20,062 nt of DNA from the IMG/VR virus record IMGVR_UViG_3300045538_000210, positions 1 to 20,062 of that record; one strand, 5' to 3'. The stretch comes from a virus. Below, piece after piece: positions 3,844-19,352 of this stretch; position 1 is the stretch's first letter; each line of letters begins with the position of its first letter. The notes under the pieces were generated by a model. It was not told where the DNA came from. It saw nothing but the letters and a program-made list of their open reading frames with translations, and made no database searches. A program made the translations under genes and the position numbers.

Positions 3844-4332
3844 ATGGCTGAATTACTCGATCCCAATGAAATTTTTTTCACACCGTTTGAGCCAAAATTA
3901 CAGAACCGATTTATTATGTATATTGAGGGAGTTCCTGCATATTTGGTAAAAGGTGCTGGTAGACCAAACATCAGTTTCAATCCAATCACACTTGACCACA
4001 TCAACGTCAAACGTAAAGTAAAGGGAAAGGGTGAATGGCAAGATATTACAATCAAATTGTATGATCCTATCGTGCCCTCCGCTGCTCAGGCAACAATGGA
4101 ATGGGTGCGTCTTTCACACGAATCTGTAACAGGTCGTGATGGTTATTCTGACTTCTATAAGAAGGATATAACACTTCATGTTCTCGGTCCTGTTGGTGAT
4201 AAAGTTGAAGAATGGACACTTAAAGGTGCTTTCATTACTGCAACAACATTCGGTGAAATGGATTGGGCAAATGATGCGTTTGTTGAGATTTCTCTCACAC
4301 TCGCGTATGATTATGCTATCCTCCAATACTGA
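3844..4332 (+). CDS. Tail tube protein, T4 gp19-like
   Basis: Forms the hexameric rings of the inner tail tube through which DNA passes. Its 162 residues match T4 gp19 (163). Seen in the sequence: the N-terminal 'LQNRFIMYIEGVPAYLVKGAGRP' strand-turn-strand, the central 'INVKRKVKGKGEWQDITIKLYDP', a helix around 'ATMEWVRLSHE', and the C-terminal beta strands '...WTLKGAFITATTFGEMDWANDAFVEISLTLAYDYAIL', which is the usual end of the T4 gp19 tube family. ATG 3844 is preceded by TTTGGAG (GGAG 3834-3837, 6-base spacer). The gene lies directly downstream of the sheath, the standard order in contractile tails, and is bracketed by two terminators with its own promoter-like motif. Arg codons favour CGT, as in the sheath gene. 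Confidence 0.95.
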   Translation: MAELLDPNEIFFTPFEPKLQNRFIMYIEGVPAYLVKGAGRPNISFNPITLDHINVKRKVKGKGEWQDITIKLYDPIVPSAAQATMEWVRLSHESVTGRDGYSDFYKKDITLHVLGPVGDKVEEWTLKGAFITATTFGEMDWANDAFVEISLTLAYDYAILQY

Positions 4333-4451: not shown

Positions 4452-5318
4452 ATGACAAAAATTCCAACCGGTTACAATGTAGCCAATGAAGAAACAGTTT
4501 CAGATGCCGATATTAAGGCACAACTTCTTGCAGAACATAAACAAACTTCTGTTAAAAAAACAAACTTTCCAACAGAGATAATACCTTTGCCATCAAAAGG
4601 ATTGTTTTATCCAGAAGGACATCCACTTGCCGAAGGTGTTATTGAAATGAAATATATGACTGCAAAAGAAGAAGATATTTTAACATCACAAAACCTCATT
4701 AAACAAGGTGTAGTTTTAGATAAATTGTTTGAGTCTTTGATTGTTACACCAATCAACTACCATGATTTATATGTTGGTGATAAAAATGCAATTATGGTTG
4801 CCGCTAGAATTTTAGGATATGGAAAAGATTATACCGTTCAGGTTGACGATCCATTTTCGCCGGGTAATAAACAACAAGTTACAATAGATTTAACTGAAAT
4901 TGAGCACAAGGAGGTCGATTACAGCCCATTTCAGAACAGAGCAACCGAATTTGATTTTGAATTGCCGGTATCAAAAAGAACCGTTACATTTAGATTTATG
5001 ACTCATGGATTAGAAAAACAAATACAGAGTGAAATAAAATCTATGAACAAAACTATGGTAAAAACTGGAGTTGATAAGGAACTAACAACAAGACTCAAAC
5101 ATATTATCACATCTATTGATGGTGAAACAGGAAGAGCTGCTATAAATAGTTTTGTTGATAATGAACTATTTGCTGCAGATTCAAGGGCATTGAGGTCATA
5201 CATGAAAGAAATCTCACCCGATCTAGATATGACTTTTACATTTGTTTCCGATTTAACAGGTGAGGTAAAGGAGATTGATATACCTATTGAGGTATCATTT
5301 TTTTGGCCTGGCACCTGA
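4452..5318 (+). CDS. Tail assembly chaperone / baseplate hub assembly protein, T4 gp26-like
   Basis: Probable assembly factor that keeps the tape measure soluble and helps start tube growth. In T4 the family is called baseplate hub protein gp26 (208 residues; this protein has 288). Family-like features are 'EIIPLPSKGLFYPEGHPLAEGVIEMKYMTAKEEDILTS' (residues about 43-80), a conserved 'LxSKGLFY' followed by the 'MTAKEEDIL' helix, then a helical core. It lies exactly between the tube and the tape measure genes, where contractile and long-tailed phages keep their chaperone genes. ATG 4452 has AGGA at 4440-4443 (8-base spacer). The last codons, TCA TTT TTT TGG, contain a T7 run inside the overlap with the next frame, so a fraction of ribosomes may change frame and make a longer fusion protein (see the site at 5298-5304). 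The gp26 assignment comes from remembered motifs plus position. Confidence 0.78.
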   Translation: MTKIPTGYNVANEETVSDADIKAQLLAEHKQTSVKKTNFPTEIIPLPSKGLFYPEGHPLAEGVIEMKYMTAKEEDILTSQNLIKQGVVLDKLFESLIVTPINYHDLYVGDKNAIMVAARILGYGKDYTVQVDDPFSPGNKQQVTIDLTEIEHKEVDYSPFQNRATEFDFELPVSKRTVTFRFMTHGLEKQIQSEIKSMNKTMVKTGVDKELTTRLKHIITSIDGETGRAAINSFVDNELFAADSRALRSYMKEISPDLDMTFTFVSDLTGEVKEIDIPIEVSFFWPGT

Positions 5319-5541
5319 TTATAGATTAGGACTACATGAAGAAATTTTTTCTTTGTGTTATTATGGAAAAGGTGGATTTACTTGGAATGAAGTTTACAAT
5401 CTTCCGATTCATTTGAGAAGATTTTACATAAATCAAGTAAAAAAGGCATTGGATGAAAAGAATAAAGCAGAACACGCAGAGGTATCGAAACAAAAAGTAA
5501 GTATGCCTACCTTTACTAAACCACCAATGCCAAGACGATAA
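5275..5541 (+). CDS. gp51-like C-terminal extension of the chaperone, probably reached by frameshift
   Basis: This frame is open from 5269 (TAA at 5266-5268) to TAA 5539-5541 and overlaps the end of the gp26-like gene. It encodes GLAPDYRLGLHEEIFSL, then 'YYGKGGFTWNEVYNLPIHLRRFYINQVKKAL' and a charged tail. The pattern (a YGK..F turn, then a 'LP.HLR.FY' helix and a Lys-rich end) resembles T4 gp51-type hub assembly proteins as I remember them. There is no ATG before the conserved part. Only TTG 5275 and TTG 5287 are available, and AAAGGAG at 5267-5273 is too close to the first and about 13 bases from the second. A +1 or -2 slip on the T7 run is the better explanation: it would attach about 79 residues from this frame to about 284 of the upstream protein, like G/GT of lambda. 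Independent initiation by re-start is the alternative. The gene itself is likely real because the frame is conserved-looking and coding in composition. Confidence 0.7.
   Translation: MIYLLRYHFFGLAPDYRLGLHEEIFSLCYYGKGGFTWNEVYNLPIHLRRFYINQVKKALDEKNKAEHAEVSKQKVSMPTFTKPPMPRR
5298..5304 (+). other. Candidate programmed frameshift site (T7 run)
   Basis: Seven T read as TTT TTT T in the upstream frame (codons TCA TTT TTT TGG). Phe-tRNA on TTT 5301-5303 can re-pair perfectly after a +1 move (5302-5304) or a -2 move (5299-5301), and both lead into the gp51-like frame at GGC 5305. A -1 slip meets TAG at 5327-5329 after seven more codons past the run. The site lies inside the 50-base window where both frames are open. 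Confidence 0.55.
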
Positions 5542-5607: not shown

Positions 5608-8600
5608 GTGGCATCAAAAGAAGACGTAAAACTCGCGGCAGAACTAAAAGCTCTAACCCAACAACGAGTTGATTTGGAAAAACAAATCGTTGAACAAAAG
5701 AGTAAAATGGAATCGGCCGAAAAAAAATCAATAGAGAATATCAAAAAATTGGTAACATTAGAAGCACTTCGTATGGATTCCGTAGAGAAGGAAGAAGAAG
5801 TGCGCAAAAAACTTGAAAAGTTAGATAAAGATGCAGAAGATAGACAAAAGAAATCAGAGAAATACCAAAAGGAAACTGCAGATAGATCAAAGAAAGAAAC
5901 TGAGGACGCGGCCAAACGAGAAAAAAAAGACAAAGACAGATTAGATCTTGCAGATCAAACTCGTAATCTAGCAAATGAACAAAAAAAGATAAATGCAGAT
6001 ATAGGTGCTAGTCTTGGTATAATGAATGACAAAACAAAAAGTTTTGCACAAGAATTACAAAAGGGTAATGATGCAGGTAATGAATCTGTAGATTATTGGA
6101 ATAAAATTGCAAATTCGATTGAAAAAGGATATAACACAAGCACACAGTTTGAATCAAATTTGAAAGATGTAAAATCTATAAACGGTGATATATCAGATTT
6201 ATACCAAGAATCAGTTGCTCAAACAGGTGAAATAGAAAAGGGAAATGCAAAAATAATAAATACCGATAAGGCAAGAGAGGCCATTGCAAAAAAGAGGTAT
6301 CAAATTGAAAAAGACGGTTCTGGATTAAGTGCAGCCGATCAACAGACATTATTAAAAGGCCTTCAATATGAAGAAGCAAGACTTGATGCAATAGAAAATC
6401 AAAACAAAGTAATAGAAAAACAAACGGCATCAATGGGAATGATAAATGATGTGGGTTCAAAATTAGGAACTTCTATGTCATCGTGGGTTACTAAACTTCC
6501 TGGTGGTGATGCAATATACAAAATGCTTGGCATAGATAAGACTGCTGACAAAATGAACAAATCATTTACATCAGCAATTCAGAACGGACTTAAAGGAAAC
6601 TTCAAAACTGCTTTTGCAGAGGGTGCTAAAGGTCTTGGTAGTATGATTGCGATGGGACCAAAACTTGTTGGTGCTTTAGGATTAGGTGCATTGGCTGGTG
6701 GTTTTGGTTTGTTAGCAAAAGGAGCAAAAGGTTTATTCAATGTGTTAATGGAAGTTGATGGTGAAATTGCACAGATGGGTAAAGACTTTGCTATGAGTAA
6801 AAATGAAGCCGGTGAATTGTATAAAAATACTGCACGAATGGCAAATGAAATGAAAATTACTGGTATAAATAGCAAAGAGATAGGAGTCGGTTTACAGGCG
6901 GCACAAGAAGCATTTGGGGGAATGGATATTGCAGGAATGATCAATGCCGGAAACAAAGAAATGGAAGGTTTTGTAAAACAAGCATCTATATTAACAAAAC
7001 AATTTGGATTATCTGGTAAGGAAGTTGCGAATCTAAAAGACTTGTCAGTAATAACTGGATCATCAATGGATGATTTAGTAAAAGACGCAGTTGGTGTTGG
7101 TAAAGGTGTTATGAATGCAAAGGAGGCAATGAAAACTCTTGCAGGTGTTCCAAAAGAAGTTGCTGTTGGATTCAAGGGTTCAACAAAAGAACTTGCAGCT
7201 GCTGCTATAAAGGCAAAAATGTTGGGAACTGATCTTAAAAAAATAAAAGATATTGGTAGGGGAATGTTGGATTTAGAAGCATCTATGACTGCAGAATTTG
7301 AAGCACAGGCATTAACTGGTAAAAATTTGAATTTAAGTGCTGCTAGAAGATATGCGTTAGAAGGTGATGTTTACAATCTTCAAGAAGAATTGTTGAATCA
7401 AGCTGGATCTCTTGAAGATTTTCAAAATATGAATGTCATACAACAAGAGGCAATGGCAAAGGCAATGGGTATGTCTGTTGAAGAAATGACGGATATGCTT
7501 ACAAATGCTGAAAAATTGAAAGATGCAAAGATTGATGCAACAATGGCGGAAAATCTTTCTAAAATGAATGCACAACAATTAGCAGAGGCATCAAAGAAAG
7601 CAACCAATGAAAAACAAAAGGCATACATAGAAGAACTTGCTGCTCAAAAACGTTCTGCCAGTTTACAAGAATCAATGGCAGATGCTGTTGAGAAATTAAA
7701 ACAAAAATTTGCTCCTGTGATTGATGCAATAATTGATATGGTCGGTGGATTAGAAGAAGGCGGTGACAAGGTTTCTATATTCCAAGAAATGATAGATAGT
7801 ATTGATATGGATGCAATAGCAGCTGGTGTAAGAGAGGCACTACCAAAAGTAATGGAGGCAATAAAAGGTCTGATAAAAAGTCTTCCGAAAATAATAGAAA
7901 TGGTATCTGGACTTATCAGTAAATTTAGCGGCATCGCCGGAGCAGCCGGTGGATTTCTTGATATATTAGGTCCATCAACTGCTGGATTAGGTGCAATGGC
8001 ACTTAAAGTTGCGGGTCCAGGTGGTATAGCTGCTGGCTTCAAAGTTGCAAGTAAGGGAGCAATGGGACTGTTTGACATGGTTAAAGGTCCTCTCATGGAT
8101 GGAGTAAAAGGGTTGGCAGGTTCTGTTAGTGGAAAATTAGGTGGTGCTTTTAGTTCGGTTGCTTCCAAAGCAGGTAAACTTGGTGGCAAACTTGGAGGAA
8201 TGGCAGGTAAAATAGGCGGTGGAGATAAAGGTGGTGGATTGGCCTCAAAGGCAAAAATGCCAAAGGGCGGCGCCGGTGGTGGAGGATTTCTAAAAGGGTT
8301 GAATAATGCAGTTAAAGGAATGGACACTAAAAAAATGATGCAAGGTGCCGCTGCTATTTTAATTCTTGCTGCTGCTTTATTTGTGACTGCTAAGGCAATT
8401 CAAGAATTTATGAAAGTTGATTGGGCTGGTATGGCTAAGGCAGGTGTTGCATTACTTGGCCTCGCCGCGATTGCATATCTGATGGGATCTGCTAGTGCAA
8501 ATATGATATTAGGTGCAGCCGCTATGTTAGTTCTTGGAGCGGCATTATATGTAATTGGTGCAGGTTTACAATTCTTTACAAGTATTAGTTGGGAAGATTT

Positions 8601-9777
8601 AGGAAAGGCAGCAGTTGCACTTGTTGCTTTTTCTGCAGTTGCAGCTGGATTGGGTGTAGCTGCTCCATTGATCCTTATTGGTTCGGCTGCTATGGTTGCA
8701 TTAGGTGCAGGTGCCTTTGCATTTGGTGCAGGTATGAACGAAATAGTTCGTGCTCTTGTTGAATTGCAAAAACTTGGTGATTTAGATAAAGTTGGTGAGA
8801 ATCTTGGTAAAGGTATGGAATCGCTTGGATCCATATCAGATAAAGTAGATTTGAGTAAACTCGAAGATGCATTCGATGATTTGGATGATGCCCTCGAAGA
8901 ATTGGATTTTGAACAACTCGCAGCATTTGGACAATTAGGAAATTCTGCCCTAAAAGGAGCCGGTGAAAATCTTGTTGCAGGTATAAATTCTTTGATGGGT
9001 ATAAATCAAGGTATAAATTGGGGTGGACTTGAAGATACATTTGAAGGATTAGAAGATTCTCTTGATGAATTAGACCTAGAAGGAATACAGGCCTTTGCCA
9101 AATTAGGCGAAGAAGGTATAAAGAAAGCCGGTGAAAATTTAATTGCAGGACTAAATTCTTTTCAAGGAATGGATCCAAAAGCCGTAATAGCTGCAGTTGC
9201 TCCACTTGAAGATGTCTTTGGTGCATTAGAAGATGCATTTGATGAGTTAGATTATGAAGAACTTGATGCATTTGGTAAAGTTGATTTCTCCAAAATGGCA
9301 GCAAATACTACTGGACTATCACAATTTGCAACAGCAATCGGGGCTATAAGTGGAACACCTGGACTTGACAAATTGGAAGAACAATTCGCAAAACTTTCAG
9401 AAGCAATCGATGGATTGGATATAGACAAATTGAATGAACTTGGTAATATAAAATCCGAAGCAATGGATAATTTAGGAAAGTTACAAGCTGTTTTTCAACC
9501 ATCTCAAAAAATCGAAGGCGGTGAAGCCGGTGGAGCTGCTGCGGGTGCCGGTGGTGGAGCTGTTGCTGGTGCAGGTGGTGGAGCTGCTGCTGGTGGAGGT
9601 GGAGGAAGTTTAAGTGGTGTTGAAAGTAAACTTGATCAATTGATTGGTGTAATCAGTTCTCTTGCCACAACACCTGCTGTGATAAAGATAGGTGAAAGAA
9701 CAGTAGAAGAACTTCGTTTGAATATGGATATTAAAAAGACATTTAATGTTGAAAAGAGCTTTGGTCGTAATGTCTAA
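5608..9777 (+). CDS. Tail tape measure protein
   Basis: Sets tail length by stretching inside the tube; ejected on infection. It has 1389 residues against 590 in T4 gp29. By the usual 1.5 A per residue this predicts a tail near 200 nm. Order: charged coiled coil (1-105); Gly/Ala hydrophobic stretch (about 348-378); long helical part with 'MNAKEAMKTLAGVPKEVAVGF', 'RRYALEGDVYNLQEELLN' and 'MGMSVEEMTDML' (to about 720); Gly-rich segment (770-900); strongly hydrophobic, probably membrane-inserting segments (about 910-1040); acidic repeats (1080-1295); Gly/Ala linker (1303-1336); conserved-looking C-terminus with 'VIKIGERTVEELRLNMDIKK'. Identification rests on this architecture and on the position after the chaperone pair. 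Start is GTG 5608; TAG at 5599-5601 excludes anything upstream in frame, and no clear ribosome-binding site is seen. ATG 5707 would cut into the coiled coil. Confidence 0.9.
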   Translation: MASKEDVKLAAELKALTQQRVDLEKQIVEQKSKMESAEKKSIENIKKLVTLEALRMDSVEKEEEVRKKLEKLDKDAEDRQKKSEKYQKETADRSKKETEDAAKREKKDKDRLDLADQTRNLANEQKKINADIGASLGIMNDKTKSFAQELQKGNDAGNESVDYWNKIANSIEKGYNTSTQFESNLKDVKSINGDISDLYQESVAQTGEIEKGNAKIINTDKAREAIAKKRYQIEKDGSGLSAADQQTLLKGLQYEEARLDAIENQNKVIEKQTASMGMINDVGSKLGTSMSSWVTKLPGGDAIYKMLGIDKTADKMNKSFTSAIQNGLKGNFKTAFAEGAKGLGSMIAMGPKLVGALGLGALAGGFGLLAKGAKGLFNVLMEVDGEIAQMGKDFAMSKNEAGELYKNTARMANEMKITGINSKEIGVGLQAAQEAFGGMDIAGMINAGNKEMEGFVKQASILTKQFGLSGKEVANLKDLSVITGSSMDDLVKDAVGVGKGVMNAKEAMKTLAGVPKEVAVGFKGSTKELAAAAIKAKMLGTDLKKIKDIGRGMLDLEASMTAEFEAQALTGKNLNLSAARRYALEGDVYNLQEELLNQAGSLEDFQNMNVIQQEAMAKAMGMSVEEMTDMLTNAEKLKDAKIDATMAENLSKMNAQQLAEASKKATNEKQKAYIEELAAQKRSASLQESMADAVEKLKQKFAPVIDAIIDMVGGLEEGGDKVSIFQEMIDSIDMDAIAAGVREALPKVMEAIKGLIKSLPKIIEMVSGLISKFSGIAGAAGGFLDILGPSTAGLGAMALKVAGPGGIAAGFKVASKGAMGLFDMVKGPLMDGVKGLAGSVSGKLGGAFSSVASKAGKLGGKLGGMAGKIGGGDKGGGLASKAKMPKGGAGGGGFLKGLNNAVKGMDTKKMMQGAAAILILAAALFVTAKAIQEFMKVDWAGMAKAGVALLGLAAIAYLMGSASANMILGAAAMLVLGAALYVIGAGLQFFTSISWEDLGKAAVALVAFSAVAAGLGVAAPLILIGSAAMVALGAGAFAFGAGMNEIVRALVELQKLGDLDKVGENLGKGMESLGSISDKVDLSKLEDAFDDLDDALEELDFEQLAAFGQLGNSALKGAGENLVAGINSLMGINQGINWGGLEDTFEGLEDSLDELDLEGIQAFAKLGEEGIKKAGENLIAGLNSFQGMDPKAVIAAVAPLEDVFGALEDAFDELDYEELDAFGKVDFSKMAANTTGLSQFATAIGAISGTPGLDKLEEQFAKLSEAIDGLDIDKLNELGNIKSEAMDNLGKLQAVFQPSQKIEGGEAGGAAAGAGGGAVAGAGGGAAAGGGGGSLSGVESKLDQLIGVISSLATTPAVIKIGERTVEELRLNMDIKKTFNVEKSFGRNV
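8845..9490 (+). repeat. Four acidic repeats (56-59 residues) in the tape measure protein
   Basis: The core L-E-D/E-x-F-x-x-L-x-(D/E)-(A/S)-(L/F/I)-(D/E)-(E/G)-L-D begins at codons 8860, 9028, 9205 and 9373 (residues 1085, 1141, 1200, 1256). The first two units also share 'AGENLxAGxNS'; a related 'VGENLGKGMES' precedes unit 1. The repeats are diverged at DNA level, so they are old. They follow the hydrophobic segments and precede the Gly/Ala linker. Confidence 0.8.
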
Positions 9778-9828: not shown

Positions 9829-12800
9829 ATGTCATTAGTAGACTTAAAATCAGATTTATCGAAATATAGATCAGAAGTTTCAAAGGAAGGAAAGAACACT
9901 CCAGATGCTTCTTCTGCTACTAATGACAAAAATTTTGCAACACAACAACCGATTACGGATGAATTATACAAAGATGTTCCAAAGATAAAAAAACCAAAAG
10001 TTGTAAGTCTTACAAGTCAATTATCAAAAACAAAACTTGATGATATAAAAAATCCAAAATTAAGTGATGTTACTAAACAATTAAAATCAACCGAACTTGA
10101 TAATATAAAAAAACCAAGCACCGCTAAAATAGAAAATTTGTTGGATTCAACAAAATTAGATGAAATTGTAATACCATCTGATAAAAGGATTCAACTTGAA
10201 GATAGGTTGTCTTCAACAAATTTAGATGATATAGTTCAGAATCAAAATGAAAATTTATTGATAAATAGTTTATCTGAATTTTCACCAAGGACAACAGAAA
10301 CTGCAACAGGACTTGCATCTGGTGTTGGTCTTGACCAAATACAATCAAAATTTTCTGCAATAAACACAACTAGATTTTCAAGTCGTTTAACTGAATCGGA
10401 TGTTGAAATAAGTCCATCAAATCTTGGTCAAAACAATAATAGGTCTGATACGGTAATAAATATACCGCAACAAACATTTGAAAGAGATGACACATCACCA
10501 AACATATCAAAGAATGTTAATGATGTATCTGACAACATTGTAAATCCTGATATTGATATAAATGTTCCAGAACAATTTTTTAATAGAGAGGATCAAGCGG
10601 TTGCAATAAATACAAATATATTATCACCGATTGGTAATATAACCAATCCACAAATAGTAATAACAAGACCTCAACAATTTTTTGATAGAACGGAAAATAC
10701 AGTAAACATATCAAAGAATGTAAATGATGCTGTTAATAATATAACAATTCCAGATATTGAACCCATAATACCACCGCTTAGTTTTAGCAGAGTTGAACAA
10801 TCACCAAACATAATTACTGACACGATTCAGGAAGGTATAGTTGTAAATCCAAATACAACTGTTTTAAGAATTGATCAGGGAACGATTCATTCCGAAGGTA
10901 TTAGTGAATTTAATATAGATTCTACTCCAATAAGATTTGTTGGAACTTCCGAATTAGAAAAAATGATTGAAGTTGATGATAAGGGTCCAATTAGATATTC
11001 TGGAACAACAATACACGATTCTGATAGAAGTCAGTTAAATTTAGATGGCATAACGCCAACTATTCCTGGTGGAAGACTTGAAAAACCAGAGGATTCTCTT
11101 TATTCGGTTTTAGGATTGCAGGAAGTTAATTACTTCTCCAATCAATTTGCAATAGGATTCACCCAAAGACAACAACTCGGTGATAGTAAATATATTGGGT
11201 TTTCACAATTTGTTTGGACAGGTGGTTCTGATGATGGTCCATTTACAAGTGCTTTTGCAGATACAAATGGTAGAGGATTTCAAACATTTGTTGATCCGGC
11301 AGAATCTCTTTATCAACCAAACACATCACAATATGATTTTACAAAAATAACAGGAGTAAATTTTTTTGATGCAAATAATGATAATACTCTTGGTGGATTT
11401 ACCATATTCCCACAACATCAAATAACAGAATATAAAACAGAAACCTCACAACTTGGATGGCAAGGAAATCGGTTGGGTGCACCAACTGTAAACTTTTTAG
11501 ATACAATACTTCTAAACACAGAAGCAGGATTTAGTAAGTTTGCAGTTCAAGGTGATTCAAAATATATTCCAGATTCTTCAACATATGATTGGGATGGTAA
11601 TGCACAACAATCACCATCAGTTAATTATTTTGATTTGACTGGTAGAAGTTCAAATATGGGATTCCATAATTTTGCTGCATTTCAAGATTCAAAATATAAC
11701 CAAGATGCATCAGACTTTGTTTGGAAGGGAATCTCAACACAAAATGCTCCTGGTGTAAATTATTTTGATATACAAAAACAATTTGCTGTTGCTGGCTTTC
11801 ATGTTTTTCCACAACTATTTGATTCAAAATACATAAAACAATCTTCTGAATTTGATTGGGATGGTAATAGATTAGATGCACCTGCTGTTGATTATTTTGA
11901 TTTAACTTATGAAAAAACTATAACAGGATTTAATACGTTTCCACAAACGTATATTTCACAATATGTTCCAGAATCTTCAAGATTTACATGGGTTGGAACC
12001 AGAGGTGAAGCACCAAATACAAATTATTTGGATATATCAGCAACAAACGCTGTATCTGGTTTTGATACGTTTACACCGTCACTAGAATCAAAATACATAA
12101 AGGAATCTTCTAAACAAACTTGGAATGTTGATACACAAGATGCTCCGGCTACAAATTATCTTGATATACTCAAACAATTTACAAATAAAGGATTTCATAA
12201 TTTTCATGCACTATTTGATAGTGTTTACAATAAAGATTCATCTCAATTTGATTTCAATGGAACAAAACAAAATGCTCCCTCTGTAAATTATTTCGATTTA
12301 CAAGGAAAATTTACAACAACAGGATTCCATACATTTTCTGTTTTAAGAGAAAGCAAATATATCAAAGATTCTTCGGAATTCGATTGGAATGGAGATAGGT
12401 CTGATGCTCCTGCTATAAATTATTTTGATTTACAAGGAACTAATACATCTATCGGATTCTATACATTTGCTCAAGAATATGATTCAAAATACATCAAAGA
12501 ATCATCTCGTTTTGATTGGGATGGTGGTAGAAGAAGTGCACCTGCTGTGAATTATTTTGATTTACCTGGTAGTTTTACAAAAACTGGTTTTCATACATTT
12601 GCACAAATAAGAGATACAAAATATATTCCAGAATCTTCTGAATTTGATTGGGATGGCAATAGAAGTAAATCACCAGAAGTAAACTTTTTTGATATTAACA
12701 AAAAGGTAACTACTGCTGGTTTCCATAGACTTGCTGAAATCTATGACAGTAAGTATGTAGAAGAAATATCTATATTCGACTGGAATGGTAGCAGAGGTGA

Positions 12801-15800
12801 ATCACCCGAAGTGAATTATTTTGATTTAAGAGGTAAATTTACAACGATTGGATTTCATAGACTTGCTGAAATATATGATAGTAAGTATGTAAAAGATTCA
12901 TCTGAATTTACTTTTCCTGGAAAATTTCCAAAGGCGGGCACGGATTACTTTGATAAAGAAATGTTAAATCAAACAGGATTTACACTTAATATACAACCAA
13001 AGGGAACAAGTAAACCTCCTGGAACAGAGTATTTCCATGAGAGTTCTTTTTATACATTCAAGGGAGGAAGACCTGGTGATCCGGTAGAATCAGTCATAAA
13101 TTTCTTCAAAGATACAAACCAGACTGGTTTTACAATGGACATCAAACGGAATGAGGGATTACCTGCAACAGAATATGCAACCGAATCTTCTATTTTTGTA
13201 TTTCAAGGTGGTAGACCAAAATTACAAAGTTTCTTTCCAGATGACAACCAAACTGGTTTCACTTTGGACATTATGCCAAAAGGTGGTAGTAGACCTGGAA
13301 CAGAATATGAAACAGACTCATCAGAATATGGATTTAAGAAATTTAGAAGACCTCCAAAACTGGATTATTTTCCAAATGATAATCAAGGTGGATTTACTCT
13401 TGATATTATGCCAAAGGGTGCTGGAAATCCAGATACAGAATATCTAACTGAATCATCAAGATTTGGTTTTGCTGGTTTAAGACCGAAAGGTGTAAATTAT
13501 TTCCCAAATGATAATGCCAGTGGATTTACAATAGATACGATGAGAAAAGGTAGTGGTAGACCACAAACAGAATACTCAACGGAATCATCTACATTTGATT
13601 GGAATGGAACTAGGGCAAATGCTCCTAGCAATAATTACTTTGGTTTGTATAGAACACCGACTGGAAAACAATATATTGATGTTCAACAAAAGAACAACAC
13701 AACACAAGCCGGTAGAGGATTCCAAACATTCTATACAGATAAAACCGTAACAAATTATGCTCCAGGATATTCAATACATTCTACTGAAAGCGGAACTAAT
13801 AAATTAAGTGTATTTGGATCATCAGATAAACCTGTAACAAATTTCTTTGGATTCATACCAATAAAACGAGCAGGTTTTATGCCAAACATGACACAGAATG
13901 ATGGAACACTTTATCCAATAGTTGCTCCAGAGTTGGTGTATAATTTAGATAAAGGTGGTAGATTATCTGTTGCAACAAATCGTGCATCTGGAGGTGTGAG
14001 TACACAAAAAGGTGAAACATTTGCTCCACTTTCATTAGGAAAAAGACCTTGGGCACAACAAGGAACATTGTCTTCTTTGGAAAATCAAATCCCAAATATA
14101 AAAACAAAGGCACCTGCTGGTGCATATAATAGAAAATATGAAACAACATTAAAATCATCTACACAAAATGCTGGGTATCTTTCTAGTTACGGAAATGACC
14201 AGGGACAAATAGATGCAATTCATAGAAAGTTTCAATTAGATCCAAACCAGTTTCAAGGTAAATCTTCATACAACGGTGCTGGTAAAAAAATTGCATCGCT
14301 TGTTCTTCGTGGTATTCAAAGAAAAGGAAATTTTGTAAATGAGGCATACGGAACGATAAATGAAGGTGTTAATGAAAGAATGGGAGGATATTCCGATACA
14401 TTCAAAGCAACGGTTGAAATTGACAGACAGAGAATACAGGCATGGTTGGATCAAAATTCAACATCTTGGGAATCATTACAAAAAGCATTATATGACAATA
14501 ATCCATTGGTTGATAGTTTAACTGCAATTAACGATTCTAGTGGAAAAGCTATATCAATGACTCGTCAATATAACCCAAAATCTTTGATACAAACTATCAC
14601 AGACAGAGAAACTAGGAACAGAAAAAGTTTGGTAATCAGACATGGAATGGCTGGTATGGAGTATAATGACAATTATGAAAGTGTTACCAACTTTATGAAT
14701 ACGGTTGCAGTAGAGGGGATGGAAAATGAAGGAAAGGATAAAGTTACTATTTTTCCAAGAAAATCTGGTGAGACATACTATGCGTCAGCGATAAAGTCTA
14801 CAACTGGTGGAATCTATACCCATTACAAATACAATAGATTGATTGCATTGGTTGCAGAACTTTTACCATCTGCTTATATTCCGATAAATAATAAATTAGG
14901 ACCAGATATAAAAAATCTTATCAGTCCTGCAAATAGAAAAATAAATAGATTATCCGGTATTGGTGGACCAAACTCAGGAACTTCTCCCGATGGAACAACA
15001 GAAATTATGCGAGCATCACATCCATTTTTGAAAATATATGATACATCTGGTGTTCTTGTCAATAATGATCCATCGTATGCGAGTAGTGCAAAAAGAGATA
15101 CATGGTTTGGACCAAAAACAAAAATTGACTCTACTGATGAAGTAGATAACACTTACGGTGGTTTAATGCAAAAACAATATGAAGATTCAACAAAAACATT
15201 TGATGGATTGATGACTGCACTTTCATATTTGTTAGATGGTGGAAAACTCTCTGGAAAGGAAACAACAACATATCCAACGGAAGGCGGCGGCGAAGGTGGA
15301 ACCGGTGGAACTGGTAATCCACAAAATTCTGCTTATATTCAACCTGGAACATATCAGTTAATAAAACAGAGAAAGCCATTTGATCCAAATCATCTTGCAT
15401 TTATTGATAGAACTCGTGCAAATATAATCAATAGTGATGTAACAACAACACCACTTACTACCACTAAAATAGTAAATACACCGCCAAGTGGCGAAGATGC
15501 TACTACAAGTCCTATAAAACAATATGCAACTGTTGCTTACGGTAAACTTAAAAAAGTAAAGAGATCAGAGGCACCAGCAGACCGTTCTGCAGACTTTAAC
15601 GATTTTAGACACGATATAGATGATTATGCTACAAAGACTGCAAACTTTTCAACTGATCCAAAAATAGCAAATTACAAAGACAATAATTTGGAAAATAAAT
15701 TTGGTTTCGGTAATCCTGGAAAAGTTGGGGTAAAAAGAGATAAACCATATAAAACTAATATACAGTATAATGGTGGTAAAGCAACAAAGAAATCTGGTGA

Positions 15801-16899
15801 CCAATATGAGTTCAGAGGAGACAGAATAAACATAATAGATTACAAGAAGTGGGAAGGTAATGAATTATTACCAAAAGATTTTGTATATGAATTGGGTAAT
15901 TATTCTAATAATGATTTGCCAGGAAAAGAAGATTTAATTGAATTTTATTTTACAAGTGTAAATTTGAAAAAATATGAGAATATACCGGCAGAAGCTATTG
16001 TATTTAGAGCGGCATTTGATACAATAACCGATAACCACAAACCAAGTTGGAGCAATACAACATATATGGGTAGAGGAGATCCAATCTATACATTTGGTGG
16101 ATATGAAAGAGATGTTAGCTTTGGGTTTACGGTTCATATTGGAACTCGCGATGAAATGAAAGCAACATGGCGTAAACTAAATTATTTGGCGTCATGGACT
16201 GCACCAGATTATCGCGGTAGTAGGATGCGTGCGCCCTTGTGCCGTTTGAACATAGGTCATCTTTTTAGAAAGACACCTGGTTTCATAAACTCATTAACGT
16301 ATACATTTGACAACGCGGGTGGAACATGGGAAACAAGACAAATGCCGGAGGATAAAGACTACAACAATGAAATGTCAAGACCAGGTGTATTGCAAGTTCC
16401 AAAGACAATTCAAGTTGCAGTTGGATTTACTGTTATAGGTAATTATCGTCCTGAAAGAAATTCTGTATTTTATAGTATATTTGATGATGATGGTGACGGT
16501 CTACTTCCATCAAGATCAAATGATGCAAAAGGTGTTAATTACTTCAAACACGATGATGATCCAACAACAAATGATAATAATGATGAAATACCAAAGCCAG
16601 ATGATAATACATCAGACACAGATGCACCTGCAAAAGTTGATACAACATATGATGATACTCAACTAGCAAGCTTGGGTATTAAAACAAGGATTGCAAAAGA
16701 CAAAGATGGTAAAGAAATAAAGGATGCAGACGGCAATCCAAGATATGAAGTGGATCCTTCAAGTAAAGGATTTTCCAAAGAAGATCCAGGAGCAGGAGGA
16801 GCCGGTGGATCAGGAAACGAAGCAGACGAAGCTGCCGCGAATTCGGCTCTTGCGGCTAAAGCCAGTGGCGGACAGTATGGACCAAATTTCCCACCGTAA
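9829..16899 (+). CDS. Giant repeat-containing virion protein with C-terminal baseplate/tube-associated domain
   Basis: This 2356-residue protein takes 35% of the window. Order: N-terminal 'MSLVDLKSDLSKYRSEV'; four 20-22-residue helical repeats (about 58-139); about four 40-residue repeats (205-335); some 20 units of about 44 residues (443-1350); a non-repeated region (1350-2030) with a Gly-rich linker near 1822; a C-terminal domain (about 2030-2210); and an acidic, Gly-rich tail. The C-terminal domain holds 'DLIEFYF', 'IVFRAAFDTITDNHKPSW', 'YMGRGDPIYTFGGYERDVSFGFTV', 'WRKLNYLASW', 'RMRAPLCRLNIG' and 'TPGFINSLTYTF'. I remember this pattern from tail structural proteins of marine T4-like phages, and it loosely recalls the tube-cap/initiator proteins gp48/gp54. 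Start ATG 9829 has AGGA at 9815-9818. Its place after the tape measure and before gp53-like and hub-like genes suggests a baseplate or tail-tip component. What the repeats do is unknown. No frameshift or break is visible. Confidence 0.85.
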   Translation: MSLVDLKSDLSKYRSEVSKEGKNTPDASSATNDKNFATQQPITDELYKDVPKIKKPKVVSLTSQLSKTKLDDIKNPKLSDVTKQLKSTELDNIKKPSTAKIENLLDSTKLDEIVIPSDKRIQLEDRLSSTNLDDIVQNQNENLLINSLSEFSPRTTETATGLASGVGLDQIQSKFSAINTTRFSSRLTESDVEISPSNLGQNNNRSDTVINIPQQTFERDDTSPNISKNVNDVSDNIVNPDIDINVPEQFFNREDQAVAINTNILSPIGNITNPQIVITRPQQFFDRTENTVNISKNVNDAVNNITIPDIEPIIPPLSFSRVEQSPNIITDTIQEGIVVNPNTTVLRIDQGTIHSEGISEFNIDSTPIRFVGTSELEKMIEVDDKGPIRYSGTTIHDSDRSQLNLDGITPTIPGGRLEKPEDSLYSVLGLQEVNYFSNQFAIGFTQRQQLGDSKYIGFSQFVWTGGSDDGPFTSAFADTNGRGFQTFVDPAESLYQPNTSQYDFTKITGVNFFDANNDNTLGGFTIFPQHQITEYKTETSQLGWQGNRLGAPTVNFLDTILLNTEAGFSKFAVQGDSKYIPDSSTYDWDGNAQQSPSVNYFDLTGRSSNMGFHNFAAFQDSKYNQDASDFVWKGISTQNAPGVNYFDIQKQFAVAGFHVFPQLFDSKYIKQSSEFDWDGNRLDAPAVDYFDLTYEKTITGFNTFPQTYISQYVPESSRFTWVGTRGEAPNTNYLDISATNAVSGFDTFTPSLESKYIKESSKQTWNVDTQDAPATNYLDILKQFTNKGFHNFHALFDSVYNKDSSQFDFNGTKQNAPSVNYFDLQGKFTTTGFHTFSVLRESKYIKDSSEFDWNGDRSDAPAINYFDLQGTNTSIGFYTFAQEYDSKYIKESSRFDWDGGRRSAPAVNYFDLPGSFTKTGFHTFAQIRDTKYIPESSEFDWDGNRSKSPEVNFFDINKKVTTAGFHRLAEIYDSKYVEEISIFDWNGSRGESPEVNYFDLRGKFTTIGFHRLAEIYDSKYVKDSSEFTFPGKFPKAGTDYFDKEMLNQTGFTLNIQPKGTSKPPGTEYFHESSFYTFKGGRPGDPVESVINFFKDTNQTGFTMDIKRNEGLPATEYATESSIFVFQGGRPKLQSFFPDDNQTGFTLDIMPKGGSRPGTEYETDSSEYGFKKFRRPPKLDYFPNDNQGGFTLDIMPKGAGNPDTEYLTESSRFGFAGLRPKGVNYFPNDNASGFTIDTMRKGSGRPQTEYSTESSTFDWNGTRANAPSNNYFGLYRTPTGKQYIDVQQKNNTTQAGRGFQTFYTDKTVTNYAPGYSIHSTESGTNKLSVFGSSDKPVTNFFGFIPIKRAGFMPNMTQNDGTLYPIVAPELVYNLDKGGRLSVATNRASGGVSTQKGETFAPLSLGKRPWAQQGTLSSLENQIPNIKTKAPAGAYNRKYETTLKSSTQNAGYLSSYGNDQGQIDAIHRKFQLDPNQFQGKSSYNGAGKKIASLVLRGIQRKGNFVNEAYGTINEGVNERMGGYSDTFKATVEIDRQRIQAWLDQNSTSWESLQKALYDNNPLVDSLTAINDSSGKAISMTRQYNPKSLIQTITDRETRNRKSLVIRHGMAGMEYNDNYESVTNFMNTVAVEGMENEGKDKVTIFPRKSGETYYASAIKSTTGGIYTHYKYNRLIALVAELLPSAYIPINNKLGPDIKNLISPANRKINRLSGIGGPNSGTSPDGTTEIMRASHPFLKIYDTSGVLVNNDPSYASSAKRDTWFGPKTKIDSTDEVDNTYGGLMQKQYEDSTKTFDGLMTALSYLLDGGKLSGKETTTYPTEGGGEGGTGGTGNPQNSAYIQPGTYQLIKQRKPFDPNHLAFIDRTRANIINSDVTTTPLTTTKIVNTPPSGEDATTSPIKQYATVAYGKLKKVKRSEAPADRSADFNDFRHDIDDYATKTANFSTDPKIANYKDNNLENKFGFGNPGKVGVKRDKPYKTNIQYNGGKATKKSGDQYEFRGDRINIIDYKKWEGNELLPKDFVYELGNYSNNDLPGKEDLIEFYFTSVNLKKYENIPAEAIVFRAAFDTITDNHKPSWSNTTYMGRGDPIYTFGGYERDVSFGFTVHIGTRDEMKATWRKLNYLASWTAPDYRGSRMRAPLCRLNIGHLFRKTPGFINSLTYTFDNAGGTWETRQMPEDKDYNNEMSRPGVLQVPKTIQVAVGFTVIGNYRPERNSVFYSIFDDDGDGLLPSRSNDAKGVNYFKHDDDPTTNDNNDEIPKPDDNTSDTDAPAKVDTTYDDTQLASLGIKTRIAKDKDGKEIKDADGNPRYEVDPSSKGFSKEDPGAGGAGGSGNEADEAAANSALAAKASGGQYGPNFPP
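9999..10245 (+). repeat. Four short repeats (20-22 residues), N-terminal set
   Basis: The core S-x-T-x-L-D-(D/N/E)-I recurs as SKTKLDDI, KSTELDNI, DSTKLDEI and SSTNLDDI, each followed by a short Pro- or Gln-containing linker and an amphipathic segment ending in L. The period is 20-22 residues. They look like short helices with turns, perhaps a docking or multimerisation segment. Confidence 0.75.
10440..10835 (+). repeat. About four repeats of about 40 residues, second set
   Basis: The pattern I-x-x-P-x-x-x-F-x-R, then N-I-(S/x)-x-N-(V/I), a spacer, and 'NI..P.I.I' recurs about four times. Two copies of 'NISKNVND' are identical (near 10501 and 10708). The set differs in sequence from both the set before it and the large array after it. 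Confidence 0.7.
11155..13875 (+). repeat. Array of about 20 repeats, 132-bp / 44-residue period
   Basis: Each unit starts with Gly-Phe. The GF residues are at 443, 483, 523, 567, 611, 656, 700, 744, 788, 832, 876, 920, 964, 1008, 1050, 1100, 1143, 1188, 1232, 1297 and 1349. From 656 to 1008 the spacing is exactly 44 eight times running. Subfamily A (units to about 14) reads GFHTF-x4-DSKYI-x-ESSEFDWDGNR-x2-AP-x-VNYFDL. Subfamily B (units 15-19) reads GFTLDIMPKG-x3-P-x-TEY-x-TESS-x-F, then G-x-RP and YFPNDNQ. The high content of Phe, Tyr, Asp and Ser suggests a beta-rich repeat fold. Confidence 0.95.
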
Positions 16900-16984: not shown

Positions 16985-17323
16985 ATGTCTTTATTCAGAT
17001 ATGAAAGTTGTGACACGATAACAAATGTAAAACGAATAATGTCTGATGGTTCTGAAAGAAGAATCAATAGACTTTCAACTGTTTTTTATCCCGATTTCAA
17101 AAACAACGAAGATGTTTTTATAGTATCACAACTCGGTGATAGATTAGACAATATCGCATTTGATTATTATGGCAATAGTTCTTATTGGTATGTTATTGCT
17201 GTAGTTAATAATCTCGGAAGGGGAACAGTCATCGTTCCTCCAGGAATTGTTTTGCGTATACCATATTATGATGGATCAACTGGTATAGCTGCTCTATTTG
17301 AACAATATAACTTTATGAGGTAA
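16985..17323 (+). CDS. LysM-type baseplate wedge protein, T4 gp53-like
   Basis: Small (112 residues) baseplate protein. Residues about 43-96 form a LysM-like fold: 'DVFIVSQLGDRLDNIAFDYYGNSSYWYVIAVVNNLG' followed by 'VPPGIVLRIPYY'. The D-x-L-x-x-I-A-x-x-x-Y-G-x-x-x-x-W motif and the 'PPG..LRIP' ending are characteristic of tail LysM proteins such as Mu gp43/P2 gpX and the LysM part of T4 gp53 (196 residues). In such tails the domain holds the wedges to the hub. ATG 16985 has AAAGG at 16971-16975 (9-base spacer). It shares a transcript with the next gene, whose ATG follows this stop by one base and whose ribosome-binding site lies inside the last codons here, so the two are translationally coupled. 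Confidence 0.85.
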   Translation: MSLFRYESCDTITNVKRIMSDGSERRINRLSTVFYPDFKNNEDVFIVSQLGDRLDNIAFDYYGNSSYWYVIAVVNNLGRGTVIVPPGIVLRIPYYDGSTGIAALFEQYNFMR

Positions 17324-17324
17324 T

Positions 17325-19352
17325 ATGGCACATAGTATTGGTGAAAATAATCCATTTCTTCGTACTCCCGGAGCTGGGGCAAATGAGATTGCCGCTAGAG
17401 CTGCTTTTTACGGTGCAAAAGTTAGGAGTGGCGCCAGAGCAGGCAAGGGAGGGGATCCTTCAGAAAGAGGACTATATTGGGCTTATGGAAAAAAAGTCTG
17501 GGCTCGTTGTGGCGGACTTGGATTGGCAGGACCAAAAGTAAATTCAGATAGAAACTCACAACTTGCATTATACAGCCCAAGATCACATTTGCCAATTCTA
17601 CCACTTTTAACAGGCATATCCGCTTCAAATGAAGGTAGAATGGGATCTATTGTAAAAGCAACCATCAGTTTTACTATGTATCCTGATATAACAACATCTG
17701 GTGTTGCGATGAAAGGATTAAATGGAAACTTTTTTAGACCCGGTGCAAGTATATCTTGTTCATGGGGTTGGTCTGTTGCTGCTGCTGTTGCTTGTGCTTC
17801 AACATTCTCATTTGGTGGTAAAGTATTAAGTTTCAGTTGGACTGTAAATGCAGACGTTTCAGTAAATGCATCTTCAACAATTATGTCTGCAGGTGCTATT
17901 GCAACTGGAGTAACTGGAAATCTTTCAAAAACTTCTGTAACTGCTGCTGCAGGACCAACTACAACTCCAAGTGGAACAACAACAACTACTCCTGCTGCTG
18001 GTGGAAGTTCGGGTGGACTTAATGTGTTGGATGCAAAGCAAATACCAGTTCCTGGAGTAGATTTAGGATCTGAGATAGATAGAGCTATGGCAGAACTAAA
18101 TCCAGTTGGTGGAACTGGCGGAAGTGCAGCTGCAAATCCACAAGCATTGGTAGATGGATCTTTATATGGTGTTACGGCATGGCAAGTAGTACCAGGAAGT
18201 GTTGGTGGTCCATTGCAATTCTGTGCTGTTGGTATACCATGGCAACCTGACCCACCTACAACTGATGAAGTTAGTAAAAGCGATGAAGAACTTGTTGCAC
18301 AATTAACCGGAGGGGGATCAGGTGCATCCGGCGGTTCAGCCGGCACGCCACCTCTTGGCGGATCTGCAGGTTCTGCTGGTGGATTCCAAGTTCCTATTGT
18401 TAAAAAATTCTGGTATGTTTCTTTTAGTAGTATGGAACCATTTCTAAATCCCCTCATATCAGCCGCAACCAATAATGAAATATCTTTTGTTGATATAGCA
18501 AATGTTACAAATGATGCAGGTGCAGCCGGATTTCCAAGTGCATATCCAATGGAAGTAATATGGCAGGGAACATACGGTGCATCTGGAGCACCAGGTGTTC
18601 CGGCAGGACCAGGTCCGGGGCGCGGTATAAAAAAAATATGGTTTAATACCGATTACACGAAAGAAACATGGAGAAAGTTTTTTAACGAAAACAATACAGA
18701 AGTAAGCCAAAAGAATTTAACTTCGTTTTTAAGTGAGTTATCGAAACGAGCAAATGAAGCATCTGGAGATTTTTGGCAATTATCTGCAACTGTTATAGAT
18801 AAGTTTTCTTCATGCGGAGGTGCTGGCCGAAAAGGTGTATCTGCATTATCAGTCGAAGATTTTAGTTATTGTGAAGATAAAGGTGCATTTGGTTTTAATG
18901 CAAGTTTTGGCAGACCTATGTTAAAAAACGTTAGTGTATCATGTCAATCCAGTTCAACTATGGGTGCAGCCGTTATGGGTGGTGGTAATACCGATGTTCC
19001 TGGAAAAGGCGGTGCCACTCTAGGAGCTGATCCTACTGCTGCTATAGACGCACTATTCAACTCGGCAAAAGAAAATGGTATAAATACTTCTTGGGGAGAT
19101 GCAATGAAAGCTTGTTTGAAAATGAAAAAGAAAAATATGGCTAGTCATCACTCTAAAAAGAGAATCCTATTTCCTATAAGTTTTAGTGTTACGGTAGACG
19201 GTGTGAGTGGTTTAGGATTCAATGAGGCAGTAGATACAAATTTGAAACCACCGGGATATAGTGGGACTAAATTTGCAATAAATGGTATACAACATTCGGT
19301 TAGTCCTGAATCATGGGAAACAACTATAAACGCAATGATGCGTGCAAATTGA
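17325..19352 (+). CDS. Baseplate hub-like structural protein
   Basis: This 675-residue protein is probably part of the baseplate hub or tail tip. The N-terminal domain has 'LPLLTGISASNEGRMGSIVKATISFTMYPD' (about 90-121) and 'FRPGASISCSWGWS' (137-150), a pattern common in phage hub proteins where a beta domain repeats the tube fold. The C-terminal 60 residues, with 'FPISFSVTVDGVSGLGFNEA' and 'KFAINGIQHSVSPESWETTINA', are the typical hub ending (F.I.GI.H.I....W.T.I). Three low-complexity Gly/Ser/Thr/Pro linkers (about 209-235, 327-354 and 415-435) separate the folded parts. I see no lysozyme or peptidase motif. ATG 17325 has GAGG at 17317-17320 (4-base spacer), inside the LysM gene. Exact T4 equivalent (gp27 or other) is uncertain. 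Confidence 0.75.
   Translation: MAHSIGENNPFLRTPGAGANEIAARAAFYGAKVRSGARAGKGGDPSERGLYWAYGKKVWARCGGLGLAGPKVNSDRNSQLALYSPRSHLPILPLLTGISASNEGRMGSIVKATISFTMYPDITTSGVAMKGLNGNFFRPGASISCSWGWSVAAAVACASTFSFGGKVLSFSWTVNADVSVNASSTIMSAGAIATGVTGNLSKTSVTAAAGPTTTPSGTTTTTPAAGGSSGGLNVLDAKQIPVPGVDLGSEIDRAMAELNPVGGTGGSAAANPQALVDGSLYGVTAWQVVPGSVGGPLQFCAVGIPWQPDPPTTDEVSKSDEELVAQLTGGGSGASGGSAGTPPLGGSAGSAGGFQVPIVKKFWYVSFSSMEPFLNPLISAATNNEISFVDIANVTNDAGAAGFPSAYPMEVIWQGTYGASGAPGVPAGPGPGRGIKKIWFNTDYTKETWRKFFNENNTEVSQKNLTSFLSELSKRANEASGDFWQLSATVIDKFSSCGGAGRKGVSALSVEDFSYCEDKGAFGFNASFGRPMLKNVSVSCQSSSTMGAAVMGGGNTDVPGKGGATLGADPTAAIDALFNSAKENGINTSWGDAMKACLKMKKKNMASHHSKKRILFPISFSVTVDGVSGLGFNEAVDTNLKPPGYSGTKFAINGIQHSVSPESWETTINAMMRAN

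Follow-up and report, generated by a model that had tools for sequence, protein, structure and literature searches.

The usual view is that a single protein, the tape-measure protein (TMP), sets the length of a phage tail. Can a second protein be matched to the same length? This question is raised by IMG/VR virus record IMGVR_UViG_3300045538_000210, of which we analyzed positions 1 to 20,062 (the window). This 20,062-base phage contig holds a contractile-tail module, in which the gene following that of the TMP encodes a 2,356-aa protein with a long N-terminal string of tandem repeats (the string protein). We found that the number of repeat units in the string is matched to TMP length in the clade of the window. 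A second protein, unrelated to the TMP, appears to be length-matched here, and the matching follows a simple, testable counting rule.

Repeat units of the string protein

A unit hidden Markov model (HMM) identified an array of 20 units at aa 443 to 1342, with spacings of 40, 40, 44, 44, 45, eight times 44, 42, 50, 43, 45, 44, and 65 residues. An earlier note on the window had described about 20 tandem repeats in an exact 44-residue register. The number holds, but the spacing is exactly 44 in only 11 of 19 cases. The nine Gly-Phe positions reported to lie exactly 44 residues apart are indeed there (aa 656, 700, 744, 788, 832, 876, 920, 964, and 1008; eight spacings). The lag-44 autocorrelation of residue identity is 0.29 over aa 371 to 1350 (maximum of 300 shuffles, 0.10) and 0.47 within aa 650 to 1060. 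The consensus of 392 exact units is GFHxFAQxYDTKYIxESSxFDWDGxRxxAPxVNYFDLxxxxTTx, with G1, F2, F5, Y13, S18, W22, G24, P30, N33, Y34, F35, D36, and T42 as the most conserved positions. The repeats are rich in aromatic residues and in Asn, Ser, and Thr. In pairwise comparison, eight units share 49% of their amino acids and 61% of their nucleotides, and the four-fold sites of conserved codons are 42% identical, which is nearly saturated. Because amino acid identity is 49% against only 42% at four-fold sites, the copies are old and kept by purifying selection, not products of recent duplication.

The array is not the whole string. Upstream of it are 20-aa repeats and 34-aa repeats composed of two 17-aa halves, all of which the earlier note had missed. 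The copy number of the 20-aa repeat steps by one among L028, L046, and L027 (L numbers denote loci of relatives), and the 17-aa halves occur as separate units in L137 and L139. The 44-aa repeat had not been recognized as a named domain, and a profile search had been proposed. When the units were searched against Pfam, PHROG, and PDB sequences, the Pfam lines were weak and under the curated cutoffs, and PHROG and PDB gave no match. A known repeat family was therefore rejected.

Unit number and TMP length

Our length comparison covered 43 distinct phages with both the string gene and the TMP complete. Their array shape is mostly 40 40 [44 x n] 41 39 (39) 41 41 or a variant of it. The number of 44-mers (n44) alone was rejected as a predictor of TMP length. 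It gave a raw r of 0.76, but r was 0.52 in phylogenetic contrasts (R2 of only 0.28), and sister pairs seemed to break the relation until the upstream repeats were counted. With both terms, the fit was TMP = 604 + 17.6 (±1.5) n44 + 0.99 (±0.09) upstream length, with an R2 of 0.89. On the 42 phylogenetic contrasts, this fit had an R2 of 0.81 and a t of about 10 for each term, and 0 of 20,000 permuted sets matched it. Under equal or square-root branch lengths, the contrast R2 was 0.70 or 0.76, respectively. Each term had looked weak by itself because n44 and upstream length trade off.

A single count does nearly as well. With 44-, 20-, and 17-mers counted alike, the contrast model is TMP = 17.1 (±1.3) × (44-mers + 20-mers + 17-mers), with an R2 of 0.80. 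Here the 17-mers were taken as upstream length divided by 17, because counting by regular expression was too noisy. Fitted separately, one unit corresponds to 15.8 (±1.6), 20.0 (±3.0), and 18.3 (±2.0) TMP residues for the 44-, 20-, and 17-mer, values that are equal within error. When seven phages whose units are expanded or hard to count were left out, r was 0.983 in the remaining 36, with a residual standard deviation (SD) of 16.6 TMP residues, a contrast R2 of 0.90, and a slope of about 19. The corresponding formula is TMP = 487 + 19.8 × (n44 + upstream length/17). The overall slope is about 17 to 20 TMP residues per unit, whatever the unit length.

Chain length was rejected as the ruler, since contour length (R2 = 0.45) and the length of the whole protein (R2 = 0.21) are poor predictors. 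The length of the post-repeat region has no relation to the TMP (R2 = 0.00). The prediction works best for the full length of the TMP; no single segment of it exceeds an R2 of 0.46. In the relatives, the neighboring proteins barely vary in length (sheath, 812 ± 1 aa; tube, 162 ± 0; hub26, 289 ± 3; LysM, 112 ± 3). Two sister pairs have swapped one kind of unit for another. From L137 to L139, the string gains three 44-mers and loses 47 upstream residues of 17-mer repeats, and the TMP is shorter by 1 residue. From L041 to L049, it gains two 44-mers and loses 32 upstream residues, and the TMP is longer by 5.

The earlier note had held that strict register means selection on unit length. The unit is 44 residues in most phages. 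However, in one clade (L026, L030, L038, L047, L050, L061, and L241) the later units grew from 44 to 56 to 109 aa, and the unit number still fits TMP length except in L241, whose units are poorly counted. The claim therefore needs to be changed, because this clade keeps the rule on unit number.

Fold of the repeats and the C-terminal domain

The array had been proposed to form a solenoid or a fiber shaft, to be checked by structure prediction of adjacent units. We modeled four 44-aa units as a monomer with AlphaFold, using an ungapped alignment of 80 rows. The model had a mean predicted local distance difference test score (pLDDT) of 43 and a predicted template modeling score (pTM) of 0.17, with neither a helix nor a strand element. 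It gives the proposal no support. We rejected a monomeric solenoid, as the lack of a confident fold fits an extended string instead. Regular β structure was likewise not seen in this monomer model. The model is consistent with 44-aa units that are extended, or that fold only with a partner or in an oligomer. TMP-like character, i.e., mostly α-helical with hydrophobic segments, was not found either: the modeled units have no helix, and the array is polar, with a grand average of hydropathy of -0.74.

The model of the post-repeat part (aa 1404 to 2230) is moderate as a whole (pLDDT 62) and good in the C-terminal domain (AlphaFold2 pLDDT about 80 to 90 across much of it). By Foldseek, this domain has the tail-tube fold, with 29 PDB matches at an E value of ≤0.001. 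The top matches are baseplate proteins of contractile systems: PVC, Anabaena, Streptomyces, AFP, cyanophage A-1(L), and pyocin R2. T4 is lower in the ranking, and the BFVD matches include T4-like gp48 tail tube caps. The domain matched no Pfam or PHROG family, neither gp48/gp54 nor any other named one. The predicted assignment as a tube initiator follows from the tail-tube fold and gene order, not from membership in a sequence family.

Comparison with known tail proteins

The T4 tube initiators gp48 and gp54 (tail tube cap) have a domain of the same fold as the C-terminal domain of the string protein, and the string gene, like genes of this kind, lies between the TMP and the LysM baseplate gene. 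The initiators matched by Foldseek include pyocin R2 (6u5b chain g), PVC (6j0n), AFP (6rao), the Anabaena contractile injection system (7b5h), and cyanophage A-1(L) (8kea). However, these solved proteins are about 150 to 400 aa long and have no repeat string, whereas the string protein has, in addition, about 1,340 residues of tandem units at its N terminus and a further middle region.

The length of tape-measure proteins (lambda gpH, T4 gp29, and the TP901-1 TMP) is tied to tail length, as that of the string may be, and certain TMPs contain 11- or 18-residue repeats (PMC5099701). The string differs in being a second protein, in having a 44-aa array that is not predicted to be helical, and in having a predicted tube-initiator domain that would anchor it. 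Moreover, its unit number, rather than its chain length, follows the TMP. We looked for a 17- to 18-residue period in the TMP itself by hydropathy autocorrelation and saw none; the peaks were at 3, 4, 7, 11, 14, 21, 35, and 42.

Tail assembly chaperones such as lambda gpG/gpGT have been proposed to coat the TMP prior to tube polymerization, and complementary aromatic residues have been noted in the chaperone and TMP of phage p2 (PMC5099701). These chaperones are separate proteins that are displaced during assembly, while the string is a covalent part of a predicted baseplate protein. An equivalent protein is that of huge phage LR756508 (L007:15888-20624, 1,579 aa), which has a homologous C-terminal domain and likewise a long N-terminal repeat string. 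Its units are acidic, 17 aa long, and unrelated in sequence, and its TMP has 1,602 aa.

A string that may be anchored in the baseplate and pair with the TMP

We give roughly even odds (about 0.5) to the reading that the protein is a baseplate tube initiator whose string pairs along the TMP or the tail. In this scenario, it would be an initiator of the T4 gp48/gp54 kind, and its N-terminal ~1,340 residues would be an extended string made up of docking units in tandem. An anchor at the tube base would be provided by the C-terminal tube-fold domain, and the string would run up the tail beside the TMP, most likely in the tube lumen before ejection, with one unit per about 17 to 20 TMP residues. 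The string may either coat and chaperone the TMP during tube growth or serve as a co-ruler. With one unit per fixed TMP stretch, unit number would be kept matched to the TMP and hence to tail length. Units of very unequal length carry the same weight in the count, which points to a fixed axial step with a single docking event for each unit. We infer that the partner is the TMP and not the tube or sheath rings. For a helical TMP (0.15 nm per residue), the step would be about 2.6 to 3.0 nm, which is less than a 4-nm tube ring and therefore favors the TMP over the ring lattice, although only modestly, because the residue rise is assumed for this TMP. By a rough volume estimate, three to six strings and three TMPs would occupy 42 to 62% of a 4-nm lumen, so a lumen location is possible.

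The earlier note had suggested a molecular ruler or an array of docking sites, and had proposed comparing copy number with tail dimensions across relatives. Both were good guesses, as unit number closely tracks TMP length, our proxy for tail length, in this clade; the pairing is the part that we infer. TMP length determines tail length in the phages studied (TP901-1; PMC5099701), and unit number therefore probably follows tail length. Only tentatively, and at less than even odds, do we extend this to two matched rulers that set or keep tail length in the clade, namely the TMP and the baseplate-anchored string, with one unit per fixed TMP stretch regardless of unit length and with kinds of unit swappable one for one.

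Several observations weigh against a pairing of string and TMP. Nineteen relatives with other repeats or none lack a positive relation (r = -0.22; Spearman, -0.48), and we rejected a general rule for all relatives, as it fails outside the 44-aa clade. L279 combines a 2,038-aa TMP with only about 240 upstream residues, and L093, with a TMP of 1,186 aa, is almost without a string. TMP length is a proxy for tail length. The upstream term was added after the single-predictor contrasts had given an r of only 0.52, which means that the model took its form from these data. Without the eight largest contrasts, R2 drops to 0.31, and the fit is nearly flat for upstream-length divisors of 15 to 20. The units of the expanded clade cannot be counted with certainty, and L241 deviates most from the fit. 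The TMP differences within one close series sit in low-complexity linkers.

Some of these points would suit a length match that arose statistically, from common ancestry and a small number of large changes, with no physical pairing: the deep lineages are few, the model is post hoc, and the relation is absent in sister clades. We consider such an origin very improbable, in view of the contrasts with their permutation control and several branch-length models, the constant neighbor proteins, the unrelated post-repeat part, and the compensating swaps in two sister pairs. An unlikely but more serious alternative is that each unit docks to one tube or sheath ring, on the lumen wall or the sheath surface, so that the units count rings and the TMP matches them only because it sets the ring number. 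The same length data speak for this, and identical units suit an identical repeating partner. The window has about 46 units, against about 52 rings expected by our own arithmetic for a 1,389-aa TMP with a rise of 0.15 nm per residue and rings of 4 nm. Long sheaths (about 800 to 845 aa) accompany strings in many loci, and short ones (572 to 576 and 709 aa) occur with little or no string in L093, L094, and immuto. However, the slope of 17 to 20 (intervals of about 14 to 21) is below the roughly 25 to 27 TMP residues expected per 4-nm ring, and the equal counting of 17-, 20-, and 44- to 109-aa units is no easier to explain with a ring lattice than with the TMP.

Rather more doubtful is an exposed string, a flexible adhesin or whisker reaching through host mucilage, with string and tail lengths coadapted to the host surface. 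Its aromatic, Asn/Ser/Thr-rich repeats, their rapid change of type between clades, and the C-terminal Peptidase_S74 chaperone domain of some orthologues, which is typical of exposed fibers, would be in keeping with this. Such a string would hardly explain a coupling with a residual SD as low as that of the 36 phages, one that follows unit number over chain length and persists through swaps of unit kind; moreover, the S74 domain is at the C terminus rather than on the string, and the window lacks it. S74 domains form trimers in other phage proteins. This, together with the strict register and the strongly conserved Gly, Pro, and aromatic positions, would suit a trimeric or other oligomeric fibrous shaft that a monomer model cannot show. 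We regard that as improbable, since no strand element appeared despite 80 ungapped rows, there is no PDB sequence relative, and a shaft should scale with chain length, a poor correlate of TMP length.

For T4, a review describes as still unclear how the TMP is held and stays extended while the tube grows (PMC3004832). Pairing of the string with the TMP, if real, would explain both the holding and the extension, and the phages would provide experimenters with a natural set of matched lengths. A provisional role would also follow for giant hypothetical proteins of freshwater and cyanobacterial phages, such as WWT39329.1 of Mel-JY01.

Distribution among relatives

Orthologues of 1,835 to 3,136 aa are found in IMG/VR contigs and in Microcystis phage Mel-JY01. 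L002, L003, and L004 are close (66 to 67% identity in the best segment), and the unannotated Mel-JY01 protein is distant (35%). A search of the literature available to us found no report on Mel-JY01 morphology or on a second tail ruler. A profile of the C-terminal domain matches more than 570 relatives in IMG/VR, and all 187 of 187 repeat-bearing open reading frames (ORFs) carry this domain or adjoin a TMP. A bacterial origin of the repeat was rejected: 84,980 bacterial and archaeal genomes gave 28 pattern matches, of which none were relatives. More distant orthologues have different repeats (14 to 74 aa) or none, and repeat type turns over fast between clades. L252 and L279, with TMPs of 1,889 and 2,038 aa, carry 46-aa repeats, and only about 180 to 240 residues precede their middle domain.

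Peptidase_S74 (endosialidase chaperone) is at the C terminus of L002 (16682-17491; Pfam E = 2e-14). L004 (16676-17458) and L019 have the same sequence motif, and the domain is absent in the window protein and in L003. It is unusual on a tube-fold baseplate protein.

The tail module

The genes of the module are, in order, sheath, tube, gp26-like hub protein, TMP, string ORF, LysM/gp53-like protein, and hub-like protein (Table 1). The order from TMP through string gene and LysM/gp53-like gene to hub-like gene is the same in the window and in every locus spanning that region.

Table 1. Features of the string protein and neighboring tail genes in the window
Feature	Position	Strand	Basis or remark
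Tail sheath	1314-3752	+	Near-constant length in relatives
Tail tube	3844-4332	+	Near-constant length in relatives
TMP, 1,389 aa, length partner of the string	5608-9777	+	PHROG tail length tape measure protein, E = 7e-8; length regression
String-bearing protein, predicted baseplate, 2,356 aa, whole gene	9829-16899	+	Single uninterrupted ORF; orthologues known
Four 20-aa repeats (..STKLDDIKK..), aa 56-137	9994-10239	+	Lag-20 autocorrelation in aa 1-380
34-aa repeats, two 17-aa halves (FDRxxxSPxI / DNIxNPxI), aa 209-340	10453-10848	+	Lag-34 and lag-68 autocorrelation
44-residue array, 20 units, aa 443-1342	11155-13854	+	Unit HMM
Eight consecutive exact 44-residue units, aa 656-1007	11794-12849	+	Gly-Phe spacings
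Post-repeat middle region, start, aa 1404-1700	14038-14928	+	Conserved in relatives with or without 44-aa repeats (alignments); helix at model residues 120-153
C-terminal tail-tube-fold domain, tube-initiator-like, aa about 1996-2224	15814-16500	+	AlphaFold2, Foldseek
LysM/gp53-like baseplate protein, directly 3' of string gene	16985-17323	+	PHROG baseplate wedge subunit, E = 6e-9

The downstream hub-like protein (17325-19352) ranges from about 600 to 1,350 aa across relatives, whereas the length of most other tail genes hardly varies. The string does not account for this variation (R2 = 0.17). The gp26-like gene (4452-5541 region) has a terminal run, CATTTTTTTGG, at about 5298-5308, and it overlaps another ORF of 88 aa (5275-5541) immediately 5' of the TMP. 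Together, the two look like a programmed frameshift tail-assembly chaperone of the lambda G/GT type.

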